Below, piece after piece: positions 13,912-15,252 of a stretch of 15,275 nucleotides of DNA. The position numbers and the translations under genes were made by a program. Under the pieces are notes generated by a model. That model had not been told where the DNA came from, searched no databases, and saw nothing but the letters and a program-made list of their open reading frames with translations. Within the stretch, counting starts at the first letter, position 1, and the number at the start of each line of letters is the position of its first letter. Where the stretch lies: NCBI GenBank assembly GCA_027038775.1, contig JALWGP010000097.1:1-15275 (forward strand), read 5' to 3'. Source of the stretch: Sedimenticola sp. Lineage in GTDB: Bacteria > Pseudomonadota > Gammaproteobacteria > Chromatiales > Chromatiaceae.

Positions 13912-15252
13912 ATGAACGACCTCGTCCAGCGCGCGAAGGAATTCGCCACCAGCGCCCACAAGCGCATCGACCAGCAGCGCAAGTACAGCGGCCAGCCCTA
14001 CGACGTCCACCTCAAGGCGGTGGCCGCCCTGGTGGCCGAGGTGGGCGGAGACGAGGAGATGATCGCCGCCGCCTGGCTCCACGACACGGTGGAGGACACC
14101 CCCGCCACCCACCACGATATCGAGGACACCTTCGGCCCCGGTGTGGCCCGGCTGGTGTGGGAGCTCACCGACATCAGCCGCCCCGGCGATGGCAACCGGG
14201 CCGTGCGCAAGGCCATGGACCGCGACCACCTGGCGCAGGCCTCGGACCGCGCACAGACCATCAAGCTGGCCGACCTCATCGACAACGCCCGCGACATCTG
14301 CAAGCACGACGAGCGCTTTGCCCGCACCTACCTGCAGGAGATGGCCGCCTTGCTGGACGTGCTCAACCGCGGCCACCCCGAGCTGCTGCGCCGCGCACGC
14401 AAGCTGCTGGGCAGGTGCGAGGAGAAGCTGGACATCACCCTCCCCGCCCACGGCATGGAGGTGGAAGAGGCGGAGCAGCTGCACCGCAAGACCCTGGGCT
14501 TTGCCCGCCGCCGCATCCAGCGCCTCTTCAACGACGCCTTCACGGCGCGGGACATCGCCGAGCCCCTGGTCTCCTTCGACGAGGACCGGGATCCCGCCCG
14601 CATCCTGGAGGCGATGGAGGCGAAGCGGGTCTCGGTGGCCGGCATCCGCCACCAGGGCCTGGTGCACGCCTACCTGCGGCGCGAGGACCTGGCCGCCGGC
14701 CTCGTCCCGCGTCAGGCCCGCCGCTTCAGCCCCGACCAGGTGGTGGCGGGCGACGCCGGCCTGCCGGCGGTGGTGGAGGTGCTCACCCGCCACCACCACT
14801 GCTTCGTCACCGTGCTGGGCACGGTGAACGGCGTCATCACCCGCTCGGAGATGGAAAAACCCCTGGTGCGCATGTGGCTCTTCGGCATGATCACCATGCT
14901 GGAAATGCGCCTGGCGGAGATGATCGCCGAGCGCTGGCCCGGCGAGAGCTGGACGGAACTGGTGAGCCGGGGCCGCTTGGAGAAAGCGAAGAAACTGCAG
15001 GAGGAGCGGAGCCGCCGCGGCCAGCAGGTGTCGCTGCTGGAGTGCCTGCAGCTCTCCGACAAGGGCTACCTGGTGATCCGGGATCCCGACTACTTCCGCC
15101 AGCTCGAGCTGCAGTCGAAGTCCCAGGGGCAGGAGGCGATCCGCGCGCTGGAGTCCCTGCGCAACAACTTGGCCCACAGCCAGCCCATCACCACCGGCGA
15201 CTGGCCCCAGATCGTGCGCATGACGCGTCTGGTGGCGGGTACCGGTACCTGA
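13912..15252 (+). CDS. SpoT/MESH1-like (p)ppGpp hydrolase domain fused to CBS pair and HEPN-like domain
   Basis: A 446-residue soluble protein. Residues 1-175 are an alarmone-hydrolase HD domain: RKYSGQPYDVH with H33, the HD pair in LHDTVEDT (H57-D58, E61-D62) and KLADLIDN with D121, all matching SpoT and MESH1. No synthetase or TGS domain follows. Residues about 212-262 and 270-318 look like two CBS modules, which usually bind adenine nucleotides. Residues 320-446 are helical and contain RNNLAH (R417-H422), the Rx4H motif of HEPN RNases with the usual polar residue after Arg. The protein may couple alarmone breakdown to nucleotide sensing and RNA cleavage. The ATG at 13912 has AAGGA upstream. 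The HD call is firm, CBS likely, HEPN suggestive. Confidence 0.82.
   Translation: MNDLVQRAKEFATSAHKRIDQQRKYSGQPYDVHLKAVAALVAEVGGDEEMIAAAWLHDTVEDTPATHHDIEDTFGPGVARLVWELTDISRPGDGNRAVRKAMDRDHLAQASDRAQTIKLADLIDNARDICKHDERFARTYLQEMAALLDVLNRGHPELLRRARKLLGRCEEKLDITLPAHGMEVEEAEQLHRKTLGFARRRIQRLFNDAFTARDIAEPLVSFDEDRDPARILEAMEAKRVSVAGIRHQGLVHAYLRREDLAAGLVPRQARRFSPDQVVAGDAGLPAVVEVLTRHHHCFVTVLGTVNGVITRSEMEKPLVRMWLFGMITMLEMRLAEMIAERWPGESWTELVSRGRLEKAKKLQEERSRRGQQVSLLECLQLSDKGYLVIRDPDYFRQLELQSKSQGQEAIRALESLRNNLAHSQPITTGDWPQIVRMTRLVAGTGT

Follow-up and report, generated by a model that had tools for sequence, protein, structure and literature searches.

The association of a HEPN domain with CBS and HD domains in one protein is not new, having been listed in 2013. 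In the table of Swt1-like HEPN proteins of Anantharaman et al. 2013 (PMC3710099) an entry reads 'CBS and HD (alr3009), active', and the text discusses HEPN+CBS+HD and suggests that RNA stability is controlled in response to nucleotides. There the HD counts as a generic phosphohydrolase, and 'ppGpp' and 'SpoT' are absent from the main text. DeWeirdt et al. 2026 (PMC13092281) showed that DS-11, a single protein that has CBS and HEPN domains, stops phage; Y157A in the CBS or mutations of the HEPN catalytic residues abolished phage defence, and the adenine derivative is, according to the authors, yet to be discovered. Enzymes of the small alarmone hydrolase (SAH) type hydrolyse (p)ppGpp and/or (p)ppApp (PMC9765508, PMC7644958). 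The gene described here is an open reading frame (ORF) at positions 13912–15252 on the forward strand of a 15,275-nucleotide stretch of Sedimenticola sp. (the window, bases 1–15275 of contig C97, JALWGP010000097.1, in a draft genome of 2.37 Mb that is 89% complete). It encodes a protein of 446 amino acids in which an SAH-type HD domain is followed by a CBS pair and a HEPN domain, both predicted, and which belongs to a real, conserved family.

The proteins of Anantharaman et al. (alr3009 and gi 118580987), compared by description, share the three named domain types with the window protein. DS-11 shares, by its description, CBS and HEPN in one protein, and is described as CBS and HEPN only, without HD. 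MESH1, the Pseudomonas aeruginosa SAH, XccSAH and PaSpo of phage SSU5 are small, generally single-domain proteins (PMC3153485), whereas here a CBS-HEPN half follows. The AbiF/AbiD and Swt1-like HEPN nucleases differ in that the window holds no Rfam match at E≤0.1. Csm6 of type III CRISPR has CARF instead of CBS, no HD and another ligand, and is used as a working analogy, not as a claim of membership. CARF-HEPN nucleases such as Csm6 degrade their own activator. The literature consulted comprises PMC3710099, PMC11559606, PMC3153485, PMC12165695, PMC9765508, PMC12846349, PMC9712102, PMC7644958 and PMC13092281. In the literature searched, no paper combined HEPN with 'small alarmone hydrolase' or joined HEPN, CBS domain, HD domain and ppGpp, and alr3009 was mentioned only by Anantharaman et al.; in the one match checked for small alarmone hydrolase and CBS, 'CBS' was part of a web address. 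The initial annotation of this gene, made from the sequence alone, knew of no described system with the three-part architecture; against this stand the 2013 listing and the validation of DS-11. New here are the placement of the HD among the SAHs, its likely single fusion to a DS-11-like CBS-HEPN half and the joint conservation of both active sites, as read from sequences and predicted structures.

The gene starts with ATG, 6 nucleotides downstream of a Shine-Dalgarno-like GAAGGA (13900–13905, forward strand). Residues 1–165 (13912–14406) make up the HD domain, with a Pfam HD_4 match at residues 8–143 (E 3e-20, above its cut-off). The H...HD...ED...D..N motifs are complete, with H33 at 14008–14010, H57-D58...E61-D62 at 14080–14097 and D121...N125 at 14272–14286. 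From the MESH1/SAH family, H33 is known as metal-binding and the second motif as catalytic. The predicted fold is that of an SAH, with no synthetase domain fused to it, and by sequence and predicted fold the HD half is of MESH1/SAH type. The residues that determine base specificity are not evident in such enzymes, according to PMC7644958. A variable linker (residues 166–205, 14407–14526), with a predicted local distance difference test score (pLDDT) below 50 at residues 181–195, leads to the CBS pair (residues 206–316, 14527–14859). Its two CBS-like segments were confidently modelled as a tandem CBS fold at about residues 210–316; Pfam gave no CBS match in the window protein at E≤1. CBS pairs bind adenine nucleotides and may also bind S-adenosylmethionine-type ligands.

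The C-terminal domain (residues 317–441, 14860–15234) was assigned to the Swt1/AbiF type of HEPN by Pfam, structural model and structural ranking. HEPN_Swt1 matched residues 335–431 with E 2e-4, below its cut-off (22 versus 27.5 bits). The model of residues 312–446 (pLDDT 86.2) predicts a HEPN helical bundle, and 11 of the 13 top rows of the structural ranking were AbiF, Csm6, HepS or HEPN/MNT toxin entries, with AbiF, Csm6 and HepT at the head. Foldseek alone found nothing at E≤0.001 for this model, and a profile search of solved structures returned four unrelated rows (E 0.22–0.8) for the HEPN alignment and none for the CBS-HEPN alignment. The RNNLAH sequence at R417-H422 (15160–15177) has the R-[polar]-x3-H form of the Swt1/Abi2 clade of HEPN RNases, and we take it to be the catalytic motif. 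Dimeric HEPN domains with R-x4-H cleave RNA. A PADLOC scan of the whole protein gave PDC-M34B (E 0.025), which led nowhere.

At E≤1e-3, 1777 proteins among 7997 scored candidates matched the 446-residue query. The best 120 of these cover 96–100% of it, and since all are 434–494 amino acids long, an assembly artefact was ruled out as the origin of the three-part chain. Of the 120 listed homologues 68 were scanned with Pfam (E≤1; set A1), which found HD_4 in all 68, HEPN_Swt1 in 66 and CBS in 39. An alignment of 200 rows was made from 120 database proteins, the window protein included, and 80 genome loci; these rows are not all independent, and one gene may be represented by more than one of them. 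H33, H57, D58, E61, D62, D121 and N125 of the HD and R417, N418 and H422 of the HEPN were each identical in 200/200 rows. Few positions are invariant (29/165 in the HD, 0/40 in the linker, 3/111 in the CBS pair and 18/130 in the HEPN), yet the ten named residues all belong to this set, so that their conservation goes beyond chance, and a fortuitous RNNLAH was discarded. A less biased sample was obtained with an HD-less CBS-HEPN bait in 350 genomes of the class: 13 had matches. Twelve of these were three-part chains, the window's own among them, and each retained both motif sets; the remaining one was a CBS-HEPN-only protein. The HD and HEPN active sites are thus kept together throughout the rows examined. 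The intact SpoT/MESH1 motifs, the two CBS-like segments and the HEPN-type C-terminus named in the initial annotation all stood, and R417/H422, whose variation would have counted against it, did not vary.

The nearest relatives found for the HD are free-standing phage and plasmid proteins, and such relatives are common. HD-half matches occurred in 298 phage and 347 plasmid records, some of them RSH proteins, and none of the 347 or the 298 covered 80% of the full chain, by which a mobile three-part element was ruled out. On viral contigs, the best 80 of 393 loci matched within residues 1–176 only (50–57% identity), and carriage of the whole chain by viruses was rejected as well. Two long matches (H18 and H22) proved by eye to be full-length Rel-like proteins. 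The best plasmid matches were 57–59% identical over the HD, and PaSpo of SSU5 was 44% identical over 151 residues. A midpoint-rooted HD tree was built of 92 rows (84 different). Of the 80 viral loci 40 were included, and none of the plasmid HD proteins; some of the latter equal the viral ones in similarity (up to 59%). All 39 fused HDs fell on one side of a branch (support 100/98) and the SpoT/Rel rows on the other. The nearest neighbours of the fused HDs were three viral proteins, with weaker support (94/55). PaSpo of SSU5, the only named paSpo member in the tree, was on a long branch outside the chain and viral rows (80/87). Because the fused HDs form one clade, a single fusion event is the simplest reading and is likely. 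In another locus, L097:3800–4498 (reverse strand), a relative of the same family with the HD half alone was seen, 67% identical over residues 3–174, and no CBS-HEPN match lay beside it in the 8-kb stretch.

The CBS-HEPN half also exists alone, in many proteins. At a cut-off of E≤1e-3 two CBS-HEPN baits retrieved 245 and 405 proteins, and in the precomputed Pfam column none of the 240 listed has HD_4. R..H was present in 120/120 and 116/120 of those listed for the two baits, and [ST]xx[DN] in 112/120 and 113/120. The window's own CBS-HEPN half aligned with an HD-less protein over 223 query residues (202–424) at 30% identity (E 2e-29). Three of five HD-less loci were in mobile or defence settings. 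In the first (L094, product listed as Frateuria terrea), the gene is immediately followed, on its own strand, by HsdM and HsdS genes, and a tRNA gene lies at a distance of 99 bp; in the second (L095), it is two genes from a phage-type integrase gene and flanked by two ORFs without Pfam match; in the third (L196), it lies within a 71.5-kb IMG/VR viral contig. The other two (L114 and L115) showed no clear setting, and no HD-like ORF was near any of the five. HD-less forms are sporadic, with 2/247 and 2/197 genomes of two families, bait genomes included. The CBS-HEPN alignments found 1 and 0 relatives on viral contigs, and three CBS-HEPN queries found nothing in DNA searches of Escherichia coli genomes. 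The CBS-HEPN module seems to reach archaea, because 'CBS domain-containing proteins' of haloarchaeal plasmid records (H41–H55) are similar over the CBS-HEPN part (25–29% identity). In L196:5391–8861, an HNH-like, a nucleotidyltransferase-like and two short ORFs, judged by eye, precede the CBS-HEPN gene and have the look of a cargo hotspot.

These observations are best accommodated by a nucleotide-gated HEPN RNase with a CBS sensor and an HD hydrolase that ends the response, a tentative reading with a probability of about 0.45. The CBS pair would bind a nucleotide, likely of the adenine type, and thereby switch on the HEPN RNase; the HD would act as a hydrolase on nucleotides with a 3'-pyrophosphate, (p)ppGpp or (p)ppApp, and bring the response to an end. 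If the HD substrate were the CBS ligand or its precursor, as we infer by analogy to Csm6, the chain would be a self-limiting switch, and growth would be halted for a time when phage attack or nutrients run out. The single activities are borrowed from established families: removal of 3'-pyrophosphate by SAHs, binding of adenine nucleotides by CBS pairs and RNA cleavage by dimeric HEPN domains. In a bolder version, which we consider improbable, CBS-HEPN nucleases of the DS-11 kind would be activated by a (p)ppApp-like, 3'-pyrophosphorylated adenine nucleotide, with the fused HD as a timer that destroys it and the related free-standing phage hydrolases as counter-defence; if true, this would be an alarmone version of the arms race between cyclic oligoadenylates and ring nucleases.

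Several results weigh against the nucleotide-gated switch. [ST]xx[DN] is a nucleotide-binding signature of CBS domains; it is strict in 113/200 three-part rows, and the window protein has T..E. The relative in L097 retains the HD alone. A search of 80 loci (about 965 kb; more than 2 kb on both sides in 50 of them) recovered its positive control but no synthetase-like ORF near the three-part gene; a partner alarmone synthetase was thereby ruled out, and the adjacent synthetase gene of toxSAS systems is missing. The organism's own genome has two RSH-like frames with RelA_SpoT synthetase domains, on other contigs; HD_4 matches one of them fully and the other in part. Mobile or defence settings were not seen around the three-part gene, and its neighbourhood carries no defence signal. 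Scanned were 102 of 124 direct neighbours, the rest being too short, near-repeats or over the residue limit; gene calling relied on a simple longest-ORF script, and some of the genes are spurious. Among the families shown (25 of 74 for Pfam), they were mainly metabolic, with argininosuccinate synthase, Cys/Met pyridoxal-phosphate enzymes and porins, and among those shown for PADLOC (25 of 56), DrmC models matched 3 of the 102 neighbours and GajB/RTasHel helicase models 1. The defence role proposed for the three-part form in the initial annotation thus found no support in the neighbourhood.

The same metabolic neighbours and scarce PADLOC matches speak for a chromosomal housekeeping stress regulator outside defence, in which the CBS pair reads energy charge, the HEPN trims the cell's RNA and the HD lowers (p)ppGpp in parallel, as a second output. 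We regard this alternative as possible but doubtful. It is favoured by the distribution: of 195 genomes of the order, 38 carry the three-part gene, 35 of them in practically full length, as do 9 of the 13 genomes listed for its own genus, against the few genomes with HD-less forms, counts that were obtained with different baits and cut-offs. The lack of the chain in the plasmid and phage records also fits. However, the spread is patchy, with 157/195 genomes of the order lacking the gene; among 398 genomes drawn from the phylum, the matches listed were full length in the own genome only and CBS-HEPN alone in two. In addition, the relatives of the CBS-HEPN module are defence-like, and defence genes may lie outside islands.

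In a one-chain toxin-antitoxin, the HD would hold the HEPN RNase inactive or undo its damage, for instance by taking pyrophosphate off tRNA 3' ends, and loss of HD control would free the toxin. In all 200 rows an invariant RNase motif goes together with an invariant HD active site, and PaSpo of SSU5, a relative of the HD, is described as countering the toxSAS FaRel2, whose product it takes off tRNA. With 240 listed CBS-HEPN proteins lacking HD_4 and no HD-like ORF at the five loci, however, the HEPN appears tolerable without an HD. An HD that keeps the RNase off, as the initial annotation had suggested, is not needed and is weakened as an idea, so that the self-limiting switch is preferred and the in-chain antitoxin is quite unlikely. 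Of that annotation as a whole, the domain identities held; the novelty, the brake and the defence role were not supported.

Least probable is a cofactor-linked regulator, in which the HD is a nucleotide phosphatase with NADPH or PAPS as main substrate: MESH1 structures were, by their titles, solved with PAPS and NADPH (9chy and 5vxa), XccSAH hydrolyses NADPH in addition to alarmones (PMC9765508) and human MESH1, used at a high concentration, freed within 30 min up to 33% of the phosphate of NADPH (PMC7644958), but XccSAH is less efficient on NADPH than on alarmones (PMC9765508), and thin-layer chromatography saw no NADPH hydrolysis by Mesh1, MESH1 or SAHMex (PMC7644958).

Other candidates near the gene were examined. 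A conserved operon partner was ruled out, the commonest neighbour family occurring in only 9/80 loci. An AbiF-type partner RNA was discarded on the Rfam scan of the window and on that of nine loci, where the matches at the gathering threshold were one tRNA and two S-adenosylhomocysteine riboswitches. These riboswitches (L015:11849–11930 and L037:13573–13653) lie near the three-part gene, and in another locus, L096, this gene is near MetF-like and S-adenosylhomocysteine hydrolase-like genes, as judged by eye. In the window, a metallo-beta-lactamase-fold gene (12870–13823, reverse strand) is divergent from the three-part gene, and 23 bases remain 3' of the latter. Further upstream, a 123-nucleotide direct repeat (3996–4118 and 6106–6228, 96% identical) was observed, by which the 3' end of an ABC-transporter ATPase gene (6080–6811, reverse strand) recurs as a fragment in a short ORF (3979–4272). 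A DsrC-family protein is encoded at 4161–4637 (forward strand), fitting a sulfur-oxidising relative. In the region 10696–11948 (reverse strand), a gene of the MbnB/TglH/ChrH family adjoins an ORF for a small, Cys-containing, secreted-looking peptide without Pfam match (11610–11948), a pair that resembles a bufferin-type copper peptide cluster.

The natural fusion of a DS-11-type domain pair to an SAH-type domain opens the ligand question to direct tests of a few candidates, (p)ppApp and (p)ppGpp, and could point to the missing signal of a DS-11-type phage-defence protein. If the nucleotide-gated switch is correct, alarmones of the stringent response would be linked to RNase-based growth arrest within one chain, and alarmone hydrolases borne by phages would gain a possible target in counter-defence.
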